From positions 1 to 44,813 of IMG/VR virus record IMGVR_UViG_3300037584_004880: a stretch of DNA of 44,813 nucleotides; one strand, given 5' to 3'. The translations under genes were made by a program, and so were the position numbers. Source of the DNA: a virus. Under the pieces are notes generated by a model. That model was given only the letters and a program-made list of their open reading frames with translations, made no database searches and was not told where the DNA came from. Shown here one piece after another: positions 24,312-41,612 of this stretch; the first letter of the stretch is position 1, and every line of letters begins with the position of its first letter.

Positions 24312-24350
24312 TGTGTTCTTAATAACTTTATAAATTTTAAATATTTTAGT
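24312..24350 (-). other. Relic of the Cys-triplet N-terminal module after the gene's end
   Basis: Directly overlapping and following the stop, the - strand reads TKIFKIYKVIKNT in one frame, which is a degraded copy of the module start TKIFKSYEEFKN (the DNA is also clearly similar). A matching relic lies after the gene at 38206. This suggests the genes once stood in tandem and collapsed by recombination. Confidence 0.55.
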
Positions 24351-25041
24351 AGTAATTGTATTCACCTTCTAGGTTGTTGCCCCTTACGCAGTATCTGCAG
24401 TCGGTGCAGTTGTAGCAGTTGTTGCAGTTGTTACAGTCTTTGCAGTCTTGGCAGTCGTCGCAGGAGCTGCAATTGTCGCAGGAGCTGCATTTATAGCATT
24501 TGTTGCAGTCGTCGCAGGAGCTGCATTTATAGCATTTGTTGCAGTTGTTGCAGTTGTCACAGTCTTTGCAGTCTTGGCAGTCGTCGCAGTCGGTGCAGTT
24601 GTAGCAGTTGTTGCAGTTATTGCAGAAGTAGCAGTCGTTGCAGTGTTTGCAGAAGTAGCAGAGTTTGCAGTCATAGCATTTGTAGCAGCCATCGCAGTTG
24701 TAGCAGAGTTTGCAGTTATTGCATTTGTTGCAGTTGTTGCAGTTGTCACAGTCTTTGCAGTCTTGGCAGTCGTCGCAGTTGTTGCATTTGTAGCAGTAGT
24801 TGCAGTTATTGCAGAAGTAGCAGTCGTTGCAGTCGGTGCAGTGATAACAGTAGTTGCAATTGTCGCATTTGTGGCAGTAGTTGCAATTGTCGCATTTGAA
24901 ACAATCCCAACAGCCTGTGTTTGTTTCGTTCATCTGTTCCCAATTGCTATGCTTGGCTGCAAATTCTTCACTAACTCCGTTTACTGTTTTATCTGGTCTG
25001 TTCTTAAACTCTTCATAACTTTTAAATATTTTAGTTGCCAT
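24346..25041 (-). CDS. Cysteine-triplet repeat protein A, 231 aa
   Basis: After an N-terminal module (MATKIFKSYEEFKNRPDKTV ... AAKHSNWEQMNETNTGCW) comes an uninterrupted run of about 58 x-x-C triplets, with N, D, K, Y, H, F, S at the other positions, then a short end (NNLEGEYNYY). Cysteine is about a quarter of the residues. ATG 25041 is preferred to ATG 25056 because GAGGA sits in between. No signal peptide or TM is seen, so it is probably cytoplasmic, where most Cys would be reduced or metal-bound. The same module occurs at four more loci in this window. Function unknown. Confidence 0.75.
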   Translation of the reverse strand: MATKIFKSYEEFKNRPDKTVNGVSEEFAAKHSNWEQMNETNTGCWDCFKCDNCNYCHKCDNCNYCYHCTDCNDCYFCNNCNYCYKCNNCDDCQDCKDCDNCNNCNKCNNCKLCYNCDGCYKCYDCKLCYFCKHCNDCYFCNNCNNCYNCTDCDDCQDCKDCDNCNNCNKCYKCSSCDDCNKCYKCSSCDNCSSCDDCQDCKDCNNCNNCYNCTDCRYCVRGNNLEGEYNYY

Positions 25042-25074
25042 TGGTTTAATCCTCAATATTGTTTAACTATATTT

Positions 25075-28476: not shown

Positions 28477-29463
28477 CTATTTATACCAACTAGGCAAAGT
28501 TTCTAGGCTAGTTGCATTTTTAAACATACTATCCATATTTTCAACTTCTCGAGTATCCCACTTGTTAATATCTTGATTGAAGGCAGTTGCACCACGAAAC
28601 ATACCACGCATATAAGTGACGTTACTAACATCCCAGTCACCAATAGGTTGGTTGAAGCTAGTTGCCTCATTAAACATACCGCGCATATTAGTTACATTTT
28701 TAATATCCCAGTCACCAATAGGTTGGTTGAAGTTAGTTGCCCTGTAAAACATACACTCCATATCTTCAACGTTTTGAGTATCCCACTTGTTAATATCTTG
28801 ATTGAAGGCAGTTGCACGACGAAACACACCATACATATTAGTGACATGTTTAGTATCCCAGTTACCAATAGGTTGATTGAAGCTAGTTGCACCCAAGAAC
28901 ATACGCTCCATATTAGTGACGTTGCTAGTATCCCAGTCACCAATAGGTTGGTTGAAGCTAGTTGCCCTGTTAAACATACTCTCCATATAAGTGACGTTGC
29001 TAGTATCCCAGTCACCAATAGGCTGATTGAAGCTAGATGCACCACGAAACATACCCCGCATATCATTGACATTGCTAACGTCCCAGTCACCAATAGGTTG
29101 GTTGAAGCTAGATGCACCACGAAACATACCCCGCATATCATTGACATTGCTAACGTCCCAGTCACCAATAGGTTGGTTGAAGCTAGTTGCGCCACTAAAC
29201 ATACCCCACATATTAGTGACATGTTTAGTATCCCATTCGCTAATGTCACCATTAAAATCTGAATTATGAAACAAAAAACTCATATCAGTAATTTGACTGG
29301 TATCGATGTGATTAAAATCGCAATCGTAACCCTTTTCAAGTACTTCTTTCTTTATTATTTCTTGTAAATGCTGTCTATTTTTAGCTACTATTTTATTACT
29401 CATTGATTTAATCCTTATTTCTTGTAAATGCTGTCTATTTTTAGCTACTATTTTATTACTCAT
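28477..29463 (-). CDS. DUF285 (BspA-like) repeat protein 1
   Basis: Nine 25-residue repeats of the form M[18 protein letters not shown] follow an N-terminal module ([13 protein letters not shown] ... [14 protein letters not shown]). This is the DUF285 repeat, known from Mycoplasma and BspA-like surface proteins, where it folds as leucine-rich-repeat-like solenoids. No signal peptide is visible, so it is probably cytoplasmic. The frame can start at ATG 29463 or at 29403 because the start region is duplicated. The protein ends LETLPSWYK, as in the paralogue at 40674. Confidence 0.8.
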
Positions 29464-29480
29464 TGATTTAATCCTTATTT
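29355..29480 (-). repeat. 60-base tandem duplication of a ribosome binding site and gene start
   Basis: Units 29355-29414 and 29415-29474 (plus six further matching bases) are identical. Each includes AAGGATTAAATCA, an ATG and the first residues [16 protein letters not shown]. The gene therefore has two start sites in frame, giving products that differ by 20 residues. Confidence 0.95.
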
Positions 29481-29554: not shown

Positions 29555-30658
29555 TTAAATATCCTTAAAATCATCTTCTATAGGGGTCATGTCTACTTTT
29601 TCACCTTTATCGCTCTCATGTGCAGCTTTTAAGCGACCTGAACGCTTATGCACTAACTTCCCACATTCACTGTTAAACTTCTTCCTACCTAATAATGTTT
29701 CTATAGAAGTTAGAGACTTAATGCTAGTTGTGTATAATTGGTCATGGGGTATAAGGGTCTTAAGATGACTTTCGACTTTTTGTGGGTCTATCCACGCACG
29801 ACTGCCCCTTCCTCTTATAAGCTTAACCCCTTTTATCTGCCCCCCTTCTTTTAAGTTAGCTTCTGCCTGTTCAACTACAGCTTTTAAAAACCCCTCTATC
29901 AACCCTTTATGCTTTATTATATTGGCTATATCATCTTCCCCCAAAGTGCTAGGGTTAAGCTCCTTAAAGTCATCAGTTAGTAAAACTTGCTCCGTAAAAC
30001 CTAATAAAGCCCTACATTTACTTTTAAATTTACAGTATTTACAAGCTACTTCACTAGGTTGATAACTAGGGTTTAATTCTACTTCTAGGGCTTTTTGTTT
30101 AGCATACTCTCCAAACTCTAGTAGCTGTTCTAAACTCAGAACCTCGGACTCTATATGGCTCTTAGTAGGTTGGCATATATGCAACTCAAATCTTACAGGC
30201 TCAGTAGGTAACTCTTTGGCTAGAGTCTGTAATGCCCCAAGAGCGTACAATCTTAATTGGCTGTTATTTTCTGCTGATACTATATTTCTACCTGTTTTTA
30301 AATCAATGACATGGAGAGTCCTAGTTTCTAGGTCATAGCTTATAAAGTCCGCATAGCCATACCCATCCGCCACCCATTGAGTGTAGAACACCTTCCTTTC
30401 TACAAAATTAAATTGGTAAGTGTACTCCTCCACATAATCTAAATATGTGCCAACACATCTTCGCATATCGATATCATTGCATGAACTTAAGTCATCTGTT
30501 CCTAACAGGCAGCCTTGTGCTAAGTCATGAGCTATTGTACCCATACGTGCTGCATCGGATACCTGGGGTTCATTTAAAGAACTCTCAGCAGCTACGCTAG
30601 CAGTGCATTGTAACCATCTATGAGACGATGATGCCCCTAATTTTGAATGTTGTACCAC
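29555..30658 (-). CDS. DUF2800 PD-(D/E)xK nuclease, 367 aa
   Basis: The start is set at GTG 30658, which has a strong AAGGGAGGG site, rather than upstream ATG 30712. The protein begins with QHSKLGASSSHRWLQCTASV and has GYADFISYD, then LHVIDLKTGR (catalytic D and D-x-K) and a later cysteine cluster CKYCKFKSKC. With C near residue 18 this gives four cysteines placed as in Cas4/AddB-type Fe-S nucleases. DUF2800 proteins are phage exonucleases linked to recombination beside PolA and DUF2815. It overlaps the end of the Cys-triplet gene by about 22 bases. Confidence 0.85.
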   Translation of the reverse strand: MVQHSKLGASSSHRWLQCTASVAAESSLNEPQVSDAARMGTIAHDLAQGCLLGTDDLSSCNDIDMRRCVGTYLDYVEEYTYQFNFVERKVFYTQWVADGYGYADFISYDLETRTLHVIDLKTGRNIVSAENNSQLRLYALGALQTLAKELPTEPVRFELHICQPTKSHIESEVLSLEQLLEFGEYAKQKALEVELNPSYQPSEVACKYCKFKSKCRALLGFTEQVLLTDDFKELNPSTLGEDDIANIIKHKGLIEGFLKAVVEQAEANLKEGGQIKGVKLIRGRGSRAWIDPQKVESHLKTLIPHDQLYTTSIKSLTSIETLLGRKKFNSECGKLVHKRSGRLKAAHESDKGEKVDMTPIEDDFKDI

Positions 30659-31002
30659 AGTACCCTCCCTTGTATATGTTTGCAGTATGTGCATTTGTGG
30701 CAGTGTTTGCATTTGGAGCAGTGTTTGCAGTGTTTGCTGTCTTTGCAGTCTTTGCAGTTGTTGCAGTGTTTGCAGTGTTTGCAGTCTTTGCAGTCATTGC
30801 AGTGGTCGCAGGCTTTGCAGAGGTAGCAGTTGAAGCAGTAGTTGCAATTGTCGCAATCACTGCAATTCCAACATCCTTTGTTTGTTTCGTTCATCTGTTC
30901 CCAATTATCAAACTTGGCTGCAAAGGCTTCACTAACTCCGTTTACGGTTTTATCTGGTCTGTTCTTAAAGCCTTTATAAGACTTAAATATTTGTGTTGTC
31001 AT
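30637..31002 (-). CDS. Cysteine-triplet repeat protein B, 121 aa
   Basis: Same N-terminal module (MTTQIFKSYKGFKNRPDKTV ... WEQMNETNKGCW) followed by about 20 x-x-C triplets rich in K, H, D and N, one lost Cys (KDSKHC), and a short hydrophobic end (GRVLWYNIQN). Its end overlaps the GTG start of the DUF2800 nuclease, so the two are likely cotranslated. The higher His/Lys content differs from copy A. Function unknown. Confidence 0.75.
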   Translation of the reverse strand: MTTQIFKSYKGFKNRPDKTVNGVSEAFAAKFDNWEQMNETNKGCWNCSDCDNCNYCFNCYLCKACDHCNDCKDCKHCKHCNNCKDCKDSKHCKHCSKCKHCHKCTYCKHIQGRVLWYNIQN

Positions 31003-31539: not shown

Positions 31540-32046
31540 TTATTTCTTTTTTGGGCTGTCTATATCCGCCTTAGTTACGTAATCGATACATAAACCTGTT
31601 TTACTATCAAATCCAACAGCTTTTGTGCAATTTTCACAGTCTTTACTATCTATACAATATTCACAGTTACTACATTTTGTGCATTTTATACAGAAGTTGC
31701 AGGAGTAACATTCTTGACAGGATTGACATTTGTTTGATATCTCACACATGTAACAGTCCACGCAACCTACGATTCCGTCACATCTGCTACAGTGGTGTGA
31801 GTCTTTACCCTTGTTACAAAAACTACAAAAGCTACAATTACTGCTCAACTCACAGGAGTTACAGTATTCACATCCTCTACAATTGTTACAGTAGTAGCAT
31901 ATGTAACAATCCCAACAACCTGTATTTGTTTCGTTCATCTGTTCCCAATTGCTATGCTTGGCTGCAAATTCTTCACTAACTCCGTTTACTGTTTTATCTG
32001 ATCTACTCTTAAAGTCTATATAACTTTTAAATATTTCAGTAGCCAT
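31540..32046 (-). CDS. Cysteine-triplet repeat protein C, diverged, 168 aa
   Basis: It has the same N-terminal module (MATEIFKSYIDFKSRSDKTV ... HSNWEQMNETNTGCW) but the x-x-C run is broken by short inserts (ELSSNC, NKGKDSHHC, DGIVGC) and includes Ser, Glu and Arg. A non-repetitive 30-residue tail (GFDSKTGLCIDYVTKADID) follows. This is the most diverged copy and may show which residues matter. About 30 cysteines remain. Confidence 0.7.
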   Translation of the reverse strand: MATEIFKSYIDFKSRSDKTVNGVSEEFAAKHSNWEQMNETNTGCWDCYICYYCNNCRGCEYCNSCELSSNCSFCSFCNKGKDSHHCSRCDGIVGCVDCYMCEISNKCQSCQECYSCNFCIKCTKCSNCEYCIDSKDCENCTKAVGFDSKTGLCIDYVTKADIDSPKKK

Positions 32047-32364: not shown

Positions 32365-33399
32365 TTACTTTTTAAAATATGATTTTACTATAGCTAACCA
32401 TAGTTGGTCTTTTACCTGCTGTTCAAAAGGTAGTGAGTTATAATCAACTAAACATGGATGCTGCTTGTTATCGGGGTCTTTAACTTTGCCATATGACCAT
32501 CCGTCCGCTATTTTTTGCTTACACCAAGCACGATGTATATCTTCTGGGGAGCAGTCTTTATTTTTTAAAAAATAATTTATGCCATTAATTGAACTTTCTT
32601 TTTGCCAATCTTCGGCTAACCCCCAATGCTTCTGTGACTTATCGCCTATGGCCTCGCAATACGCCTTGTTTACCTCGTGGCAAACTCTAGCTATTTTAAT
32701 TACTTCATCATTAGTAATAGCAAACTGCGGGCTAATGCTAGTATCAAATGTGCAATCGTCACCAGTTTCAAAAGTGCAATAGTCACCAGTTTTAAAAATG
32801 CAATCGTCACCAGTTTCAAAAGTGCAATAGTCACCAGTTTTAAAAGTGCAACTATTAAGCGTTTTAAAAATACAACCAGAACTAGTTGTAAAAGTACAAT
32901 TAGAACCAGTTTTAAAAATGCAATCGTCACCAGTTTCAAAAGTGCAATAGTCACCAGTTTTAAAACTACAATTAGAACTAGTTGTAAAAGTACAATTAGA
33001 ACCAGTTTTAAAAGTGCAATAGTCACCAGTTTTAAAAATGCAATCGTCACCAGTTTCAAAAGTGCAACTTTTACCAGTTTTAAAAGTGCAACTATTAAGC
33101 GTTTTAAAAATACAACCAGAACTAGTTGTAAAAGTACAATTAGAACCAGTTTCAAAAGTGCAACTTTTACCAGTTTCAAAAGTGCAATAGTCACCAGTTT
33201 TAAAACTACAATTAGAACTAGTTGTAAAAATGCAATTATTACCCATTGTAACAATGCAATAATCTTCACCATTAAAATCAATAACTAAATTATTTTCACT
33301 ACTACTAAATGTTCTAGTTTCTTCACACCAGTAAAACTTATCTAAGTCTAATGGCTTACCATGTTGCAACACTCTCTTTTGAACTTCTAATTTATTCAT
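32365..33399 (-). CDS. Octapeptide beta-solenoid fused to a RyR domain, 344 aa
   Basis: Residues about 48-221 are 21 octapeptides of the form x-x-C-(T/I/S)-F-(K/E/T)-T-(G/S), for example DYCTFETG. Residues about 230-343 match the RyR domain pattern: ARVCHEVNKAYCEAIGD, HWGLAEDWQKESSINGINYF, SPEDIHRAWCKQKIADGW, YGKVKD, KQHPCLVDYNSLP and KDQLWLAIVKSY. RyR domains are known from ryanodine receptors and many prokaryotes and phages. The solenoid would present the RyR domain or a binding surface. It lies two genes downstream of the NAMPT-like gene on the same strand. Function unknown. Confidence 0.8.
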   Translation of the reverse strand: MNKLEVQKRVLQHGKPLDLDKFYWCEETRTFSSSENNLVIDFNGEDYCIVTMGNNCIFTTSSNCSFKTGDYCTFETGKSCTFETGSNCTFTTSSGCIFKTLNSCTFKTGKSCTFETGDDCIFKTGDYCTFKTGSNCTFTTSSNCSFKTGDYCTFETGDDCIFKTGSNCTFTTSSGCIFKTLNSCTFKTGDYCTFETGDDCIFKTGDYCTFETGDDCTFDTSISPQFAITNDEVIKIARVCHEVNKAYCEAIGDKSQKHWGLAEDWQKESSINGINYFLKNKDCSPEDIHRAWCKQKIADGWSYGKVKDPDNKQHPCLVDYNSLPFEQQVKDQLWLAIVKSYFKK

Positions 33400-33405
33400 T
33401 TTCTC

Positions 33406-33612
33406 TCACTCCTCTATATTTTTTGGAAACACTTTTTCTAAATCTGATAATGTTATATGCCCGCCGTTAGTCACCTTTACATAAAGGCTCAATAATATCT
33501 TATTTATATTCTCTCTAAGGTAAGTATATTGTTGCCTTTGGATATTGTGGTCTTCTAAAAGCTTTAAATAGTTATCTGCATTAACTTGAACGTTGTTTGC
33601 TTCATTGCTCAT
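33406..33612 (-). CDS. Small helical protein, 68 aa
   Basis: A mostly helical, hydrophilic protein (NADNYLKLLEDHNIQRQQYT ...) begins at ATG 33612 after GAGGATAATATC and ends seven bases before the RyR gene start. It is probably cotranscribed with that gene from the promoter at 33647-33674. No family is recognised. Confidence 0.55.
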   Translation of the reverse strand: MSNEANNVQVNADNYLKLLEDHNIQRQQYTYLRENINKILLSLYVKVTNGGHITLSDLEKVFPKNIEE

Positions 33613-33623
33613 GATATTATCCT

Positions 33624-33710
33624 CGTTTGCTGTCTAACTAAGTTCTATTATAAACTGTTTTCAAATTAAGTAAACAAGTATTTAAATTTTTTTTGTTTTT
33701 ATGGTTTATT
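33624..33710 (-). repeat. 87-base promoter cassette, copy shared with 36076-36162
   Basis: These 87 bases are identical to 36076-36162. The unit spans the end of the upstream gene (stop codon included), a T/A-rich run, a promoter (TTTACT 33674-33669, 16 bases, TATAAT 33652-33647) and the start of the leader. Two such copies flank the NAMPT/PRPP synthetase pair, one on each side. Confidence 0.9.
33647..33674 (-). promoter_or_regulatory. Repeated early-type promoter, copy 4
   Basis: TTTACT, 16-base spacer containing TTTGAAAA, and a consensus TATAAT. It should drive the 68-aa gene and the octapeptide-RyR gene. Confidence 0.8.
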
Positions 33711-35193
33711 GTAGTTGAGACTCTAGTCTCTGCCTTACTTCAGATAGTGTTACCGGTTTAACAAGTTTCCCATCTAAAAATATGACATCAAGAGCACCGC
33801 CTTCTTCTCCTTCTTCTGTTTGTTGATCATGTAGGATATATGTATTTCCCTCTTTAACAACCTTTAGTAAACCTTTTGCCGACTTTTTGGTGCCTGAGTC
33901 TGTTTTAGGGTCTTTAAAGATATCTCTGCGTTGCCCGTTCACAACACCACTGGTCGCTTTCATTGCAAATCCAAAGTTATCTCGTGTCGCATATTGATAT
34001 GTATATGACCCTATCCCAAAAACCACGTTTGACGATGCAAACCCTTTTTGCTCTAATTTATGTAGTATTGCTTGAGCTCTTTCAAGAGTTATAGAGTCCC
34101 CATAAATAAGTCCAATATGTTCATCAAGCATTTTATAACCCTGTGCGGTTACAGAGCCCCCAAATATTTCCCATAAACATTCTATGGCACCTTTATTTTC
34201 AGGTGTACCTTTAGGAGCATTTTCATCACCAGCAACTATTTTCACAGGGTCGCCACTATCAGGTCTTATAACAACTTTACCATCACGTTTTAGAATATCA
34301 TCTTTTAATATAGAGACATATTCAGTCACAACTTTCCAAAAATCCCAAGTGTCAGATACAATTGATACAATTCCATTCGGATAAAGATCATTTATCAACC
34401 TTCTGAATGTATTGATCTCACCATCTTTCATACCCATACACATAACAGAGTGTTCTGTTGCAGGAACTGAGCAGCCAATCATTTCAGACTCTGCATTAGC
34501 ACCATAATAGTCTTCTGCTAAATCTATAGAAGGAACTGTATCAGTTCCTACAAATGACGTTAAATGGGCAACCCCGCTCATAACAGCGTCTTGTAGGCCA
34601 GACATCCCTCTAAAAGAAAAATCATGGGCTTGATACATTACTGATTCAATTGAAGAACCTGTTTTTTTAGCGTAACTGGTCAATAGTTTTTTATATTCAA
34701 AAGCAGTTGTTGCTGAAGTTGTAGGTTTCCATAGGTAACTAGATATGATAGTTTCTATATAGTTAGTAAGCCAAAAAAACTCAGGGTGTGTATTTACCAC
34801 GGTTATAACAGGGACACCTATTGGAACACGAGTCCCTTCGGGTAAAGCTTTTATTTTTAATGGTAGGTATCCTAGGTCATGTAAAGCTTCTATGTGGTCA
34901 ACATCTATAGCGTCTTTGCCTAAAGATGTATCCATTCTACGCTTATATTTAGATACTACTTCAATCTTAGGCTTAGCGAAAAAATTAGCACCCCAAGACT
35001 CAATTAGAAAATGTTTAATGAAGTATTGTAACCCAAAAAAGACAATTTTATTATCATACGTACCTTTAATTACTTTACCAAGCTTGGAACTGCGAGCAGT
35101 AAAGTTCGAGTATACCTCTGTAGTGCCTACTGGATATTGTTTGCGGTGGTCTGTTTTATAAAAATCTATTCCTGTTAGTGGATTAATTTTCAT
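33706..35193 (-). CDS. nadV: Nicotinamide phosphoribosyltransferase-like protein (Namat/NadV type), 495 aa
   Basis: The length equals the NAMPT family. Key motifs are present: DFYKTDHRKQYP at the N-terminus, HDFSFRGMSG (190-199), PATEHSV with the phospho-histidine at about 248, and RPDSGDP (310-316) for the phosphoribosyl group. NAMPT makes NMN from nicotinamide and PRPP. In phages, a NAMPT-like enzyme beside a PRPP-synthetase-like enzyme is the layout of NARP1, where the pair (Namat and Adps) rebuilds NAD+ from nicotinamide and ADP-ribose. Which substrate this enzyme prefers cannot be read from sequence. It follows the PRPP synthetase-like gene by 45 bases. Confidence 0.9.
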   Translation of the reverse strand: MKINPLTGIDFYKTDHRKQYPVGTTEVYSNFTARSSKLGKVIKGTYDNKIVFFGLQYFIKHFLIESWGANFFAKPKIEVVSKYKRRMDTSLGKDAIDVDHIEALHDLGYLPLKIKALPEGTRVPIGVPVITVVNTHPEFFWLTNYIETIISSYLWKPTTSATTAFEYKKLLTSYAKKTGSSIESVMYQAHDFSFRGMSGLQDAVMSGVAHLTSFVGTDTVPSIDLAEDYYGANAESEMIGCSVPATEHSVMCMGMKDGEINTFRRLINDLYPNGIVSIVSDTWDFWKVVTEYVSILKDDILKRDGKVVIRPDSGDPVKIVAGDENAPKGTPENKGAIECLWEIFGGSVTAQGYKMLDEHIGLIYGDSITLERAQAILHKLEQKGFASSNVVFGIGSYTYQYATRDNFGFAMKATSGVVNGQRRDIFKDPKTDSGTKKSAKGLLKVVKEGNTYILHDQQTEEGEEGGALDVIFLDGKLVKPVTLSEVRQRLESQLQ

Positions 35194-35238
35194 CGTCTTA
35201 TTTCCTTATTTATAGTTTATAATTCAAAATTATTTTAG

Positions 35239-36066
35239 TTAACCAATAGATGATGTGCTGTCGCTTAATACTGTTAACATAGTGTCTTCATCATCAATAT
35301 ATTTACCTATTAAATGATAACAGTAAATATGTTTGAAGTTTTCTGAAAAGTTATTTAACCCTTTTGAGAATATGCCATGTGTAACATACAAATATATATT
35401 GTTAGCACCTTTCTCTTTTAAAACTTTTGCTAATTCTGTAAATGTTCTGCCTCCATCACAAATATCATCAAGTATAATACAATCTTTATTGCTTACGTTA
35501 CCATGTAGTGTTGATGACTTAATATGACCTGTTTTAACATCTCTAACTTTAGTAGCACAAACTACTTCAGTTGATATCTCATCAGCTACATCTTTTACTT
35601 TTTCCATCGCACCTTTATCAGGTGAAATTAATACGCAGTTTTGCTCTTGTATATGCTGAACCAACATGCTGTTGGATAAAATAATATCTTTCATACTGAT
35701 GATGTTACTATTATTAATCATATCAATTGTAACTTGAGAATGAGGGTCATATATAGTAACAGATGAACATTTTAAACTGTTAATTAAATCAGCCATTACC
35801 CTAAGGCTAAAGGACTCTCCATAATTGCAAACCCTATCCTGCCTCGCATACGGAAAGTAAGGGATCGTTAACTCTATTTTAGTTTCATTATTTATATTAC
35901 GAACTGCATCAACAGTCATTAATAACTGCATGATAGAGTTAGAATCATGCAGCTTAGCCATAATATTTGTTACCCCATTAATCTCCACATGCTTGACTGT
36001 CACGTGACATTCACCCGCTGAAAAATTAAAACTCTTTACTTCTAACCCATTTACAAAAATTGTCAT
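35239..36066 (-). CDS. PRPP synthetase-like protein (possible ADPR-pyrophosphate synthetase), 275 aa
   Basis: It is shorter than cellular Prs (about 315 aa). Motifs: PYFPYARQDR (69-78), DPHS (107-110), a pyrophosphate loop around SPDKGA (148-153), a flexible catalytic loop KVRDVKTG (173-180), and the ribose-phosphate loop ILDDICDGGRT (198-208). It belongs to the ribose-phosphate diphosphokinase fold. Next to a NAMPT-like gene it may be Adps of the NARP1 pathway, which makes ADPR-pyrophosphate from ADP-ribose. A GGGGGG site precedes ATG, and an identical promoter cassette lies upstream. Confidence 0.85.
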   Translation of the reverse strand: MTIFVNGLEVKSFNFSAGECHVTVKHVEINGVTNIMAKLHDSNSIMQLLMTVDAVRNINNETKIELTIPYFPYARQDRVCNYGESFSLRVMADLINSLKCSSVTIYDPHSQVTIDMINNSNIISMKDIILSNSMLVQHIQEQNCVLISPDKGAMEKVKDVADEISTEVVCATKVRDVKTGHIKSSTLHGNVSNKDCIILDDICDGGRTFTELAKVLKEKGANNIYLYVTHGIFSKGLNNFSENFKHIYCYHLIGKYIDDEDTMLTVLSDSTSSIG

Positions 36067-36075
36067 GTTACCCCC

Positions 36076-36162
36076 CGTTTGCTGTCTAACTAAGTTCTAT
36101 TATAAACTGTTTTCAAATTAAGTAAACAAGTATTTAAATTTTTTTTGTTTTTATGGTTTATT
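36076..36162 (-). repeat. 87-base promoter cassette, second copy
   Basis: Identical to 33624-33710. It includes the promoter TTTACT (36126-36121), 16 bases, TATAAT (36104-36099), and covers the last codons of the gene at 36151. Confidence 0.9.
36099..36126 (-). promoter_or_regulatory. Repeated early-type promoter, copy 5 (NAD pair)
   Basis: Consensus TATAAT with TTTACT and a 16-base spacer containing TTTGAAAA; it should drive the PRPP synthetase-like and NAMPT-like genes together. Confidence 0.8.
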
Positions 36163-36393
36163 ATACCTCATAACTGCAAAAGCGGCTAAAATAAGGTAGA
36201 CCGAAAACTGGCAAGATGCCCATATGTTATGGTAATAGTAACTAAAAACAAAAAGCTCAAAACTGTTAGTACCTATCCATATAGAAAAACCCCAAACAGC
36301 TAACTTTTTATAGTTTAATGATACTAAAAATGTAGCGAATATAGCAAAAGACGCTACAAAATACCCTATTATATTAACACTAAATGGTACCAC
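36151..36393 (-). CDS. Small membrane protein, about three TM, 80 aa
   Basis: Three hydrophobic segments (residues 3-24, 32-52 and 57-75) with KKLAVWGFSIWIGTNSFEL between the first two. The general pattern recalls small PnuC-like or semiSWEET-like transporters, which would make sense beside NAD genes, but the similarity is weak. AAAGGAGG precedes ATG. Confidence 0.5.
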   Translation of the reverse strand: MVPFSVNIIGYFVASFAIFATFLVSLNYKKLAVWGFSIWIGTNSFELFVFSYYYHNIWASCQFSVYLILAAFAVMRYNKP

Positions 36394-36424: not shown

Positions 36425-36604
36425 TCATTTCGATAAAATATTACAGACTTTTTGCTGTGTGGCATCATCTATTTTATGTATACTCATGCAGTTAAGTAAT
36501 TGATCTGGGTAATCCCTTTGCACCCTAATGAAAAAATTAACCTCGTCATCCCTTAAATTTAATCTCCTAAGTTCTAGTTTTGTTAGTTCGATTGGGTCGT
36601 TCAT
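36425..36604 (-). CDS. Small protein, 59 aa
   Basis: ATG 36604 has AAGGAGAC seven bases upstream, and the frame stops at TGA 36425-36427. It encodes a hydrophilic helical protein (MNDPIELTKLELRRLNLRDD ... CNILSK). The clean ribosome binding site and fit between neighbours support it as a real gene. No family is recognised. Confidence 0.55.
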   Translation of the reverse strand: MNDPIELTKLELRRLNLRDDEVNFFIRVQRDYPDQLLNCMSIHKIDDATQQKVCNILSK

Positions 36605-36626
36605 ATTCTTGTCTCCTTGTTTTAGT

Positions 36627-36809
36627 TTAATTAACAGTTTCAGTTGGTATATTCGTGCTTAAATAAAACACAAGTGTGCTAGTTAAAGTGTCATTAAGTT
36701 TAATTGTTACTCCAGTTTCTAGGGTCAACTCGCTTCCATGCTCTAATAACTCGATCGTTACCACTTTTGTTATATCTAAATAAAAATCTTTATCTAATTG
36801 TACAAACAT
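36627..36809 (-). CDS. Small protein, 60 aa
   Basis: A 60-residue, beta-type protein (MFVQLDKDFYLDITKVVTIE ...) resembling small phage proteins that begin with a short 'V.LD..F.LDI..V..IE' sheet. It sits between two other short genes; AAGGCAT is the only ribosome-site candidate. Confidence 0.45.
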   Translation of the reverse strand: MFVQLDKDFYLDITKVVTIELLEHGSELTLETGVTIKLNDTLTSTLVFYLSTNIPTETVN

Positions 36810-36813
36810 AAAT

Positions 36814-36924
36814 CTATGCCTTATAGTTTTCTAGCTTCTCAATGGTTGAAAGTCTACTCTTCATAGCTAAACACAGGTATCCATATTTAAATTTGTCATT
36901 ACTTGGGGGATATCTAAACCACAT
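36814..36924 (-). CDS. Very small protein, 36 aa
   Basis: AAGGAGATAGC directly precedes ATG 36924, and the frame (MWFRYPPSNDKFKYGYLCLA ...) ends at TAG 36814-36816, four bases ahead of the next gene's start. The ribosome binding site and tight spacing are the main evidence. Confidence 0.45.
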   Translation of the reverse strand: MWFRYPPSNDKFKYGYLCLAMKSRLSTIEKLENYKA

Positions 36925-37639: not shown

Positions 37640-37696
37640 GTTGTTTGCTCCTTTTGTTGTTTAACTGTATTTTTGTGCTATAATATTAATTACATG

Positions 37697-37730
37697 ACCA
37701 CCTCAGTTTAAATACTCTTGGTGGTTTTTT
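37697..37730 (-). other. Conserved-loop hairpin, copy 1
   Basis: On the + strand ACCACC and GGTGGT (37697-37702, 37720-37725) pair around the loop TCAGTTTAAATACTCTT, followed by a T-run. It is the first of four copies with the same 17-base loop. It lies upstream of the 231-aa gene. Confidence 0.7.
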
Positions 37731-37795
37731 AGTTTTAGTTGTCACCTCCTTTTGTTGTTTAACTATATTTTTTGTGTTATAATTGTTATTAACAC

Positions 37796-37826
37796 GGCCA
37801 CCTCAGTTTAAATACTCTTGGTGGCC
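37796..37826 (-). other. Conserved-loop hairpin, copy 2
   Basis: GGCCACC (37796-37802) and GGTGGCC (37820-37826) form a perfect seven-base stem around the identical 17-base loop. It lies directly after the stop of the Cys-triplet gene at 37834. Confidence 0.7.
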
Positions 37827-37833
37827 ATTTATT

Positions 37834-38148
37834 TTAAATCTTAAAAATACCTATAATATTTCTAATTAGACCCCCAGTCTGTTTGCCACGTATCTTTTTT
37901 CTGCAAAAACGTTCGTTGCAGTAGTAGCAGTCTTTACAGTGGTAGCAGTCTTTACAGTGGTAGCAGTCGTCACAGTAGTCGCAGTAGTCGCATTTGAAGC
38001 AGCCTATGCAATTCCAACAGCCAGTGTTTGTTTCATTCATCTGTTCCCAATTGCTATGCATGGCTGCAAATCCCGCACTAACTCCATTTATTGTTTTATC
38101 TGGTTTGTTCTTAAACTCTTCATAACTTTTAAATATTTGTGTTGTCAT
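37834..38148 (-). CDS. Cysteine-triplet repeat protein D, short, 104 aa
   Basis: The shared N-terminal module (MTTQIFKSYEEFKNKPDKTI ... AAMHSNWEQMNETNTGCW) is followed by only about 12 x-x-C triplets rich in Y, D and H (CDYCDDCYHCKDCYHC), and then a 25-residue basic tail (FCRKKIRGKQTGG ... GIFKI) found in none of the others. It is the shortest copy, so the repeat number varies more than threefold across the family. Confidence 0.7.
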   Translation of the reverse strand: MTTQIFKSYEEFKNKPDKTINGVSAGFAAMHSNWEQMNETNTGCWNCIGCFKCDYCDYCDDCYHCKDCYHCKDCYYCNERFCRKKIRGKQTGGLIRNIIGIFKI

Positions 38149-38168: not shown

Positions 38169-38208
38169 TCGGTTCTTAATAACTTTATAAATTTCAAATA
38201 TTTTATTA
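38169..38208 (-). other. Relic of the Cys-triplet N-terminal module after the gene's end
   Basis: After the stop the - strand reads KIFEIYKVIKNRT, a degraded form of KIFKSYEEFKNRPDKT, and its DNA is close to the relic at 24312-24350. It supports former tandem arrangement of these genes. Confidence 0.55.
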
Positions 38209-38628
38209 GTATCTGCACTCACCTTCTAGGCTGTCACAGTCTTCTAGGTAGGCACAGTCTTCGCAATTTTTGCATTTGACGCAGTCTTCGCAGACATAGC
38301 ATTTATAGCAGTCTTTACAGCCTTTACAGTATATGCAGTCTTTACAGTCTTTACAGCAATTGCATTTGTAGCAGTCATCGCAGTCTTTGCAGTATCCGCA
38401 TTTTTGGCAGCCGTTGCATCTTTCGCACCCAAAGCAGTCATAGCAGCCGTCGCAGTCTTTGCAGTCTTTGCAATATTTGCATCCGTAGCAATTCCAACAC
38501 CCTTTGTTTGTTTCGTTCATCTCTTGCCAATTGCTATGCTTGGCTGCAAACTCTTCACTAACTCCGTTTACTGTTCTATCTTTCCTATACTTGAACTCTT
38601 CATAACTTTTAAATATTTTAGTTGCCAT
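38206..38628 (-). CDS. Cysteine-triplet repeat protein E, 140 aa
   Basis: The shared N-terminal module (MATKIFKSYEEFKYRKDRTV ... HSNWQEMNETNKGCW) is followed by about 29 x-x-C triplets and a short end (LEDCDSLEGECRY) like the LEGEYNYY end of copy A. The end and the downstream relic closely match copy A, so A and E are likely recent duplicates. Cytoplasmic; function unknown. Confidence 0.75.
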   Translation of the reverse strand: MATKIFKSYEEFKYRKDRTVNGVSEEFAAKHSNWQEMNETNKGCWNCYGCKYCKDCKDCDGCYDCFGCERCNGCQKCGYCKDCDDCYKCNCCKDCKDCIYCKGCKDCYKCYVCEDCVKCKNCEDCAYLEDCDSLEGECRY

Positions 38629-39097: not shown

Positions 39098-39138
39098 TTG
39101 AATTATTCCTTATCTGTGTTATACTTACCTTGAAACGC

Positions 39139-39165
39139 CCACCTCAGTTTAAATACTCTTGGTGG
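39139..39165 (-). other. Conserved-loop hairpin, copy 3
   Basis: CCACC (39139-39143) and GGTGG (39161-39165) around the identical 17-base loop. It lies just after the relic end of the frameshifted gene at 39219. Confidence 0.7.
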
Positions 39166-39218
39166 CCATTTATTTTAATTCATCAAATACAATGATAATT
39201 GCAAAAACATTAGTGAAG

Positions 39219-39428: not shown

Positions 39429-39486
39429 AACCCTCGATTATCATTTTACTTGCTCCTTACTTGTGTTATAATTGTTATTAACAGAC

Positions 39487-39520
39487 CCGCCTCAGTTTAA
39501 ATACTCTTGGCGGCTTTTTT
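39487..39520 (-). other. Conserved-loop hairpin, copy 4, co-varying stem
   Basis: CCGCC (39487-39491) and GGCGG (39509-39513) flank the same 17-base loop, followed by a T-run. Compared with the other copies the central A-T pair is changed to G-C on both sides, so pairing is kept. Confidence 0.75.
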
Positions 39521-39800
39521 ATTTTAATTCATCAAAAATATTTACATGTATTAAATATACCAATGCTATTGCACCTCCACCAGTACCAAAAATACCTGCA
39601 AAAACAACAGTATTTTGAAGAGCATCACCGCAATGCAATCCACCTTTACTAAGAGATACGGCTAATATACCTATAAACATCACTAACAAGAAAACTGTAA
39701 AAAACGCCCCAAAAAATACAGCTACAAGTTTTAATAAGTCTTTTAATTTATCGTCTTTCATTCTTCTAACCCTCTCTTGTTCTTTTATTTGTTCGCTCAT
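39519..39800 (-). CDS. Two-TM membrane protein, 93 aa
   Basis: Two hydrophobic segments at about residues 24-48 and 62-83 with a short GLHC loop follow a charged N-terminus (EQIKEQERVRRMKDDKLKDL). The gene at 39219 is its damaged paralogue. The function is not recognised. Confidence 0.55.
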   Translation of the reverse strand: MSEQIKEQERVRRMKDDKLKDLLKLVAVFFGAFFTVFLLVMFIGILAVSLSKGGLHCGDALQNTVVFAGIFGTGGGAIALVYLIHVNIFDELK

Positions 39801-40616: not shown

Positions 40617-40692
40617 TTTGTTGTTTAACTATGATTAGAATAACACATTTTCAAATTAAGTAAATAGGTATTTTTAACTTTTTTTCTGTTTA
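40617..40692 (-). repeat. 76-base promoter cassette, identical to 41627-41702
   Basis: These 76 bases match 41627-41702 exactly. The unit carries the promoter TTTACT (40664-40659), 16 bases, TATTCT (40642-40637), and on its other side the final codons of the DUF285 gene at 40674. Confidence 0.9.
40637..40664 (-). promoter_or_regulatory. Repeated early-type promoter, copy 6
   Basis: TTTACT, 16-base spacer containing TTTGAAAATGTGT, TATTCT, then the common ATAGTTAAACAACAA leader. Confidence 0.7.
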
Positions 40693-41612
40693 TACCAACT
40701 CGGCGAAGCTTCTAGGATAGGTGCGCCCTCAAACATACCACGCATATCAGTAACACTTTTAACATCCCAGTCACCAATAGGTTGGTTGAAGCTAGTTGCG
40801 CCACTAAACATACCCCACATATTAGTGACATTTTTAACATCCCAACCACCGATAGGTTGGTTAAACGCAGTTGCATCACAAAACATACCACGCATATCAG
40901 TAACACTTTTAACATCCCAGTCGCCAATAGGTTGGTTAAACGCAGTTGCATCACAAAACATACCACGCATATCAGTAACACTTTTAACATCCCAGTCGCC
41001 AATAGGTTGGTTAAACGCAGTTGCATCACAAAACATACCCCACATATTAGTGACATTTTTAACATCCCAACCACCGATAGGTTGGTTAAACGCAGTTGCA
41101 TCACAAAACATACCACGCATATTAGTAACACTTTTAACATCCCAGTCGCCAATAGGTTGGTTAAACGCAGTTGCCTCACAAAACATACCACGCATATCAG
41201 TAACACTTTTAACATCCCAGTCGCCAATAGGTTGGTTAAACGCAGTTGCCTCACAAAACATACCACGCATATCAGTAACACTTTTAACATCCCAGTCGCC
41301 AATAGGTTGGTTAAACGCAGTTGCATTACAAAACATACCTCCCATATCAGTAACACTTTTAACATCCCAGTCGCCAATAGGTTGGTTAAACGCAGTTGCA
41401 TCACAAAACATACCACGCATATCAGTAACACTACTAGTATCCCATTCACTGATATCACCATTAAAATCTGAGCAATAAAATAAATAACTCATATCAGTAA
41501 TTCGGCTAGTATCGATGTGATTTAGATCGCAGTTATTTCCTTTTGCAGATATCTCTTCTGTTATTAAATCTTTTAAATGCTGTTTATTATTAGCTACTAT
41601 TTTAGTTGACAT
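40674..41612 (-). CDS. DUF285 (BspA-like) repeat protein 2, 312 aa
   Basis: Nine full repeats of 25 residues ([20 protein letters not shown]) and a partial tenth follow the N-terminal module (KIVANNKQHLKDL ... HIDTSRITDMSYLF). Repeats are nearly identical at the DNA level (75-base unit), more than in paralogue 1, so expansion is recent. Here many repeats have an extra Cys (GMFC). No signal peptide. It probably forms a leucine-rich-repeat-like solenoid; its binding partner is unknown. Confidence 0.8.
   Translation of the reverse strand: MSTKIVANNKQHLKDLITEEISAKGNNCDLNHIDTSRITDMSYLFYCSDFNGDISEWDTSSVTDMRGMFCDATAFNQPIGDWDVKSVTDMGGMFCNATAFNQPIGDWDVKSVTDMRGMFCEATAFNQPIGDWDVKSVTDMRGMFCEATAFNQPIGDWDVKSVTNMRGMFCDATAFNQPIGGWDVKNVTNMWGMFCDATAFNQPIGDWDVKSVTDMRGMFCDATAFNQPIGDWDVKSVTDMRGMFCDATAFNQPIGGWDVKNVTNMWGMFSGATSFNQPIGDWDVKSVTDMRGMFEGAPILEASPSWYKQKKS

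Follow-up and report, generated by a model that had tools for sequence, protein, structure and literature searches.

Why a phage would keep, side by side, an enzyme pair that could rebuild nicotinamide adenine dinucleotide (NAD+) and a RyR domain fused to a repetitive solenoid, and whether such genes act as a single counter-defence unit, are the questions raised by a locus in IMG/VR record IMGVR_UViG_3300037584_004880, a 44.8-kb viral fragment referred to here as the window. Four consecutive open reading frames (ORFs) on the minus strand encode an Adps-like protein, a Namat-like protein, a protein of 68 aa and an octapeptide-RyR fusion, in agreement with the gene order read in an original prediction made from the sequence alone. 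The evidence points to two adjacent, separately promoted counter-defence cassettes directed against NAD+-based immunity, in which a NARP1 repair pair probably stands next to a RyR sponge.

The first two genes almost certainly constitute a NARP1 pair, as judged by sequence membership, because they carry the signatures that separate Namat and Adps from NAMPT and Prs. General family models, by comparison, identify the product of the first gene (Adps; 35239–36066, minus strand, 275 aa) as Prs-like, through the Pfam families Pribosyltran_N/Pribosyl_synth and phrog_619, and that of the second (Namat; 33706–35193, minus strand, 495 aa) as NAMPT-like, through NAPRTase/NAMPT_N and the corresponding PHROGs label. 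In phmmer comparisons, the window Namat scores 584 bits against the SPbetaL1-type Namat of solved structure versus 248 bits against mammalian NAMPT, and it shares 56% identity with the enzyme of Bacillus phage SPbetaL1. It retains the NAMPT-like fold and the SPbetaL1 catalytic residues (F189, R192, D215, R306, D13, and Y15), and its NAD+-contacting residues are identical to or conservatively substituted for those of SPbetaL1 Namat (D10, Y12, F192, R195, D218, R310, D312, G365, D366, S396, Y397, Y401, T403, R404, and D405). Furthermore, the selectivity-clamp helix carries a motif unique to Namat, GSX-phi-X-phi-X-phi-TRD, in which positions 3 and 7 are aromatic (PMC12774641). The window helix, GSYTYQYATRD, conforms to this motif, whereas phosphoribosyl pyrophosphate (PRPP)-type NAMPT lacks the adenine-binding aromatics and reads GSGGALLQKLTRD in the mammalian enzyme; aromatics at these helix positions are present in most related loci. 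The window Adps displays the motifs DPHS, KVRDVKTGHI, and DDICDGGRTF, absent from E. coli Prs, and the patterns PHS, KxR[DN]xxTGxI, and DDICDGGxTF are common to the window and one or both of two proven Adps enzymes, those of SPbetaL1 and DyoEdafos, from which these Adps-type motifs were derived in place of a published definition. Lastly, the gene order of the window, with Adps immediately preceding Namat, recurs in 78 of 89 Namat loci. The proposal that the pair belongs to NARP1 is hence upheld by the identity to a proven Namat, the selectivity helix and the Adps-type motifs. PADLOC matches of Adps to the toxins PsyrT and ShosT were taken as phosphoribosyltransferase cross-matches.

The genes downstream of this pair appear to belong to a separate cassette. 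Each pair of genes is preceded by one copy of a direct repeat, read as an early promoter, on the minus strand at 36073–36165, upstream of Adps, and at 33621–33713, upstream of the 68-aa and RyR genes; the first copy includes at its distal end the stop codon of the gene before it, and the second that of Namat. The identical 87-base promoter cassette of the original prediction was therefore correctly placed, one copy per pair, but it extends over 93 nt and its two copies agree at 91 of 93 positions. The repeat contains the element TTTACT-16-TATAAT, which matches the sigma-70 consensus at 10 of 12 positions, and the window contains six copies of this core motif, always on the minus strand, against 0.31 copies expected by chance, indicating a promoter-like element used across the phage and not private to these genes. 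The two repeats bracket NARP1 on both sides, as would be expected of a cassette that recombines at promoters.

A sister phage fragment (L211/L226), with 80–91% DNA identity to the window over several blocks, provides a further view of this arrangement. It encodes in the same position a 94% identical counterpart of the 68-aa protein, the first gene of the solenoid cassette (33406–33612, minus strand), and carries a solenoid gene behind the same type of promoter; the sister solenoid stops where the window RyR begins, and the upstream neighbour of the cassette is a helicase. No NARP1 follows the sister genes that match window positions 36431–36851, and neither NARP1 nor RyR is found within its 19.8 kb, a statement that covers the fragment and not the rest of the genome. 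The case for a single four-gene operon is weakened by the presence of a second promoter copy and by the arrangement in the sister phage, and the claim that all four genes act as one counter-defence unit is not supported on these grounds: the four genes are probably not one genetic unit, and NARP1 may have moved as a cassette by recombination at the promoter repeats. A near-DNA search of the whole region against 50,697 phage records returned no match, and tblastn of the 68-aa gene against named phages returned none.

The fusion protein (32365–33399, minus strand, 344 aa) ends in a RyR domain (Repeat12, PF02026; 32365–32724) that scores 45.2 bits in Pfam against a cut-off of 27.4. AlphaFold2 models it as a confident four-helix domain (pLDDT 96–98), and Foldseek on the fusion model assigns it to RyR Repeat12 with probability 1.00, the sole match below E 0.001 being a RyR Repeat12 chimera. 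A preprint of 29 May 2026 placed one such protein, gp78 (RyDEP) of mycobacteriophage DyoEdafos, inside a NARP1 operon, where it hydrolyses the cyclic ADP-ribose (ADPR) signal 2'/3'cADPR to ADPR and thereby supplies Adps and Namat (PMC13232231). Six of eight other phage RyR homologues, picked across the viral RyR tree, bind 2'/3'cADPR, none of the eight hydrolysed 2'/3'cADPR signals, and two, from a Ruegeria and a Pectobacterium phage, are nanomolar sponges that defeat Thoeris (PMC13232231). The window RyR keeps equivalents of RyDEP H75, W78, H100, and D117 at identical spacing, those of H75 and D117 being H289 and D331. The suggestion that it could sense or sequester an NAD-derived signal fits both these results and the retention of the four residues, and the idea, already published for other phages, is no longer new. 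PDB entry 35tm ("Ryanodine receptor Ryr domain-containing protein"), at 139 residues close to RyDEP in size, is probably the RyDEP crystal structure.

The four ligand residues are invariant across all 94 aligned RyR domains and therefore cannot separate a sponge from an enzyme. The position of RyDEP Q54, which was mutated alongside other active-site residues (PMC13232231), is occupied by Q in 11 of 11 RyDEP-type proteins, by S in the window and by A in 87 of the 94 domains of the broad set. In the tree, RyDEP-type proteins form a single clade with support 100 that excludes the window RyR, which instead groups in a broad branch with RyRs of Ruegeria and Pectobacterium phages, presumably the tested homologues H4 and H7. 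Membership of the window RyR in the RyDEP hydrolase clade is excluded by the tree and by the S at Q54. Likewise, its gene lies not inside the Adps–Namat pair, as in RyDEP operons, but downstream of Namat, past the second promoter copy and the 68-aa gene. Because of its position outside the RyDEP clade, its grouping with the Ruegeria and Pectobacterium domains and its S at Q54, the window RyR is likelier to function as a sponge than as a glycosidase.

The remainder of the fusion (32725–33399, minus strand) comprises a head of ~45 aa and 22 cysteine-bearing octapeptides of type CTFxTGxx, for which AlphaFold2 predicts a beta-solenoid with a regular strand every 8 residues (pLDDT 53–77). Foldseek found no significant match to the solenoid, those to SufB/SufD falling short of significance, and Pfam matches of the repeats to Cupin_3, Cornifin, and Big_8 were taken as repeat-driven, the first two lying wholly within the octapeptides. 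The same head and octapeptides occur without RyR and with other C-termini on further viral contigs (L010–L012, L205–L225), and 80 other viral RyR ORFs contained no octapeptide repeat, indicating that the window fusion attaches a RyR domain to a more widespread family of solenoids. Members of this family (L010, L011, L205–L225) share a conserved head, often occur as tandem paralogues and have exchangeable C-terminal domains; one member, searched against named phage records at E 1e-5, gave no match. Octapeptides also build the triple-stranded beta-helix of T4 gp5. The window solenoid might, as a guess, serve RyR as a rigid scaffold for oligomerisation or display. A more elaborate, and doubtful, proposal is that the fusion represents a new anti-Thoeris architecture, in which a solenoid, possibly an intertwined oligomer, presents several RyR pockets together and so forms a multivalent sponge, or in which a broad-branch RyR hydrolyses the signal for recycling by NARP1. 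If true, the solenoid family would be a general chassis for swapping counter-defence heads.

The original prediction had looked to other phages for the same company of genes, and this is borne out in part: RyR adjoins NARP1 in kutterviruses and is interleaved with it in DyoEdafos-type phages, but the association is rare elsewhere. Across 137 other broad-branch RyR loci (80 viral, 57 bacterial) and 93 Namat loci, many of them incomplete, neighbouring RyR and NARP1 genes were found in one of the 80 viral RyR loci, at a distance of 5.7 kb, in none of the 57 bacterial loci and in none of the 93 Namat loci, a rarity that rules out a general linkage. Immediate association is seen in 4 of 11 RyDEP-type contigs, those of DyoEdafos-type phages: gp77-gp78-gp79 were located in DyoEdafos itself, and a RyDEP-type gene lies between Adps and Namat in further contigs (L195, L196, and L200, and also L194), with no nearby NARP1 in the others (L197–L199, L201–L204). 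In the kuttervirus pertopsoe (L005:7698–11197), RyR, Adps, and Namat are contiguous. RyR is thus found next to NARP1 in at least three unrelated settings, namely the window, the kutterviruses and the DyoEdafos group, which is suggestive of a functional fit and does not prove it.

Other accounts of the locus have to be weighed against this evidence. That the enzymes form an ordinary Prs–NAMPT salvage pair, leading from PRPP to nicotinamide mononucleotide and not belonging to NARP1, would suit the library models, which name a ribose-phosphate pyrophosphokinase and a nicotin(am)ate phosphoribosyltransferase, and the PRPP activity that Namat enzymes retain in vitro (PMC12774641), but it is very improbable given the selectivity helix, the closeness to a proven Namat and the Adps-type motifs of the Prs-like partner. 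It is likewise unlikely that the window RyR is a RyDEP-type glycosidase, converting 2'/3'cADPR to linear ADPR and, via Adps and Namat, to NAD+ along one metabolic route. In its favour, the window domain retains both catalytic residues of RyDEP, H and D, the gene adjoins NARP1, DyoEdafos RyDEP offers a precedent for exactly such a route, and the kuttervirus RyR gene lies 112 bp from Adps and Namat; yet the same H and D are present in every aligned RyR domain, hydrolysis was seen in none of the eight homologues (PMC13232231), and the window domain has S at Q54, branches outside the RyDEP clade and is only 26% identical to RyDEP. Finally, the RyR-solenoid could have another job altogether, in binding a different adenine nucleotide, in virion assembly or in regulation, its proximity to NARP1 being an accident of cassette shuffling. 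The scarcity of RyR–NARP1 neighbours, the sister cassette devoid of both and the location of some RyR genes among structural genes, as in Pseudomonas phage USP_25, speak for this view, but it is distinctly unlikely in the light of the six signal-binding homologues (PMC13232231), the conserved ligand residues and the three unrelated settings.

Several points also weigh against the combination of NARP1 repair and a RyR sponge. The loop that forms the second selectivity-clamp element of Namat supplies a stacking residue, either Arg or Lys/Tyr plus a following stacking residue, and the window is atypical in having K37-L38 where SPbetaL1 has Arg, with K-L likewise in kutterviruses. Two of the eight tested RyR homologues bound no signal (PMC13232231), so that binding by the window domain is not assured. 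The part given to the solenoid as a scaffold is a guess, and the evidence on this phage comes from sequence and models.

In the mechanism favoured here, of separate repair and sponge cassettes, the starting point is known: NADase/TIR defences yield ADPR, nicotinamide, and 2'/3'cADPR. The RyR domain would quite probably capture 2'/3'cADPR, the alarm signal made by the Thoeris TIR protein, cleavage of the signal being less likely than capture and, by itself, improbable; once sequestered, the signal would fail to switch on the NADase effector. The octapeptide solenoid might multimerise or position RyR, yielding a multivalent sponge. Adps would phosphorylate ADP-ribose to ADPR pyrophosphate, and Namat would join this product to nicotinamide, completing a two-step rebuilding of NAD+; both activities are very probable from family membership. 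Such a system would operate in two layers, one blocking the alarm and the other repairing the damage, and would constitute an independent case, outside mycobacteriophages and in another RyR branch, of a likely ADPR-signal sponge paired with NAD+ rebuilding.

The window contains further repetitive features. A 68-nt element occurs four times (37672–37739, 37772–37839, 39113–39180, and 39461–39528) around a conserved stem-loop-like core, CACCTCAGTTTAAATACTCTTGGTGG or near it, and resembles a regulatory hairpin. Internal repeats also mark two long proteins of the same families (40674–41612 and 28477–29463; phrog_17273/phrog_3649); the latter has a 75-nt repeat unit, and a perfect 60-nt tandem duplication (29355–29474) lies at the start of the gene for a 328-aa repeat protein. 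Five paralogous proteins (24346–25056, 30637–31002, 31540–32046, 37834–38148, and 38206–38628), four of which match phrog_15341, mostly share the start IFKSY.DFK.R.DKTVNGVSEEFAA.HSNWEQMNETN.GCW, after which come cysteine repeats with a period of 3 (CxxCxxC).

What is new in this locus is the fusion of a RyR domain to a predicted beta-solenoid of 22 octapeptides, in a separate cassette beside NARP1, the core idea having been published; the homologue work purified R12-like domains, and its main text contains no solenoid-RyR architecture (PMC13232231). Octapeptide-solenoid proteins of other contigs (L010–L012, L205–L225) have the same head, MNKLEVQKRVLQHGKPLDLDKF, and CTFxTGxx repeats, but bear another cap or C-terminal domain, with RyR in none of the loci examined. 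The sponge-type RyRs of the Ruegeria and Pectobacterium phages belong to the same branch as the window domain, are ~44–45% identical to it and share its ligand residues, whereas the genes examined are not beside NARP1 and lack the octapeptide solenoid. SPbetaL1 NARP1 resembles the window pair in gene order, Namat identity and selectivity-helix motif, and differs in two respects: the first clamp loop of Namat is longer in the window and reads K-L for R, and the window Adps is only 32% identical to its counterpart. In the kuttervirus Salmonella phage pertopsoe, a RyR gene also directly adjoins Adps and Namat, but it comes first, encodes a different N-terminal domain and is not the closest kin of the window RyR. 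DyoEdafos RyDEP, lastly, shares with the window RyR its place beside NARP1, the equivalents of H75, W78, H100, and D117 and an apparent direction towards ADPR-based signals; it is a stand-alone glycosidase of 138 aa with Q54, encoded between Adps and Namat, whereas the window RyR lies outside the pair, under its own promoter, as a solenoid fusion of the broad branch with S at Q54.

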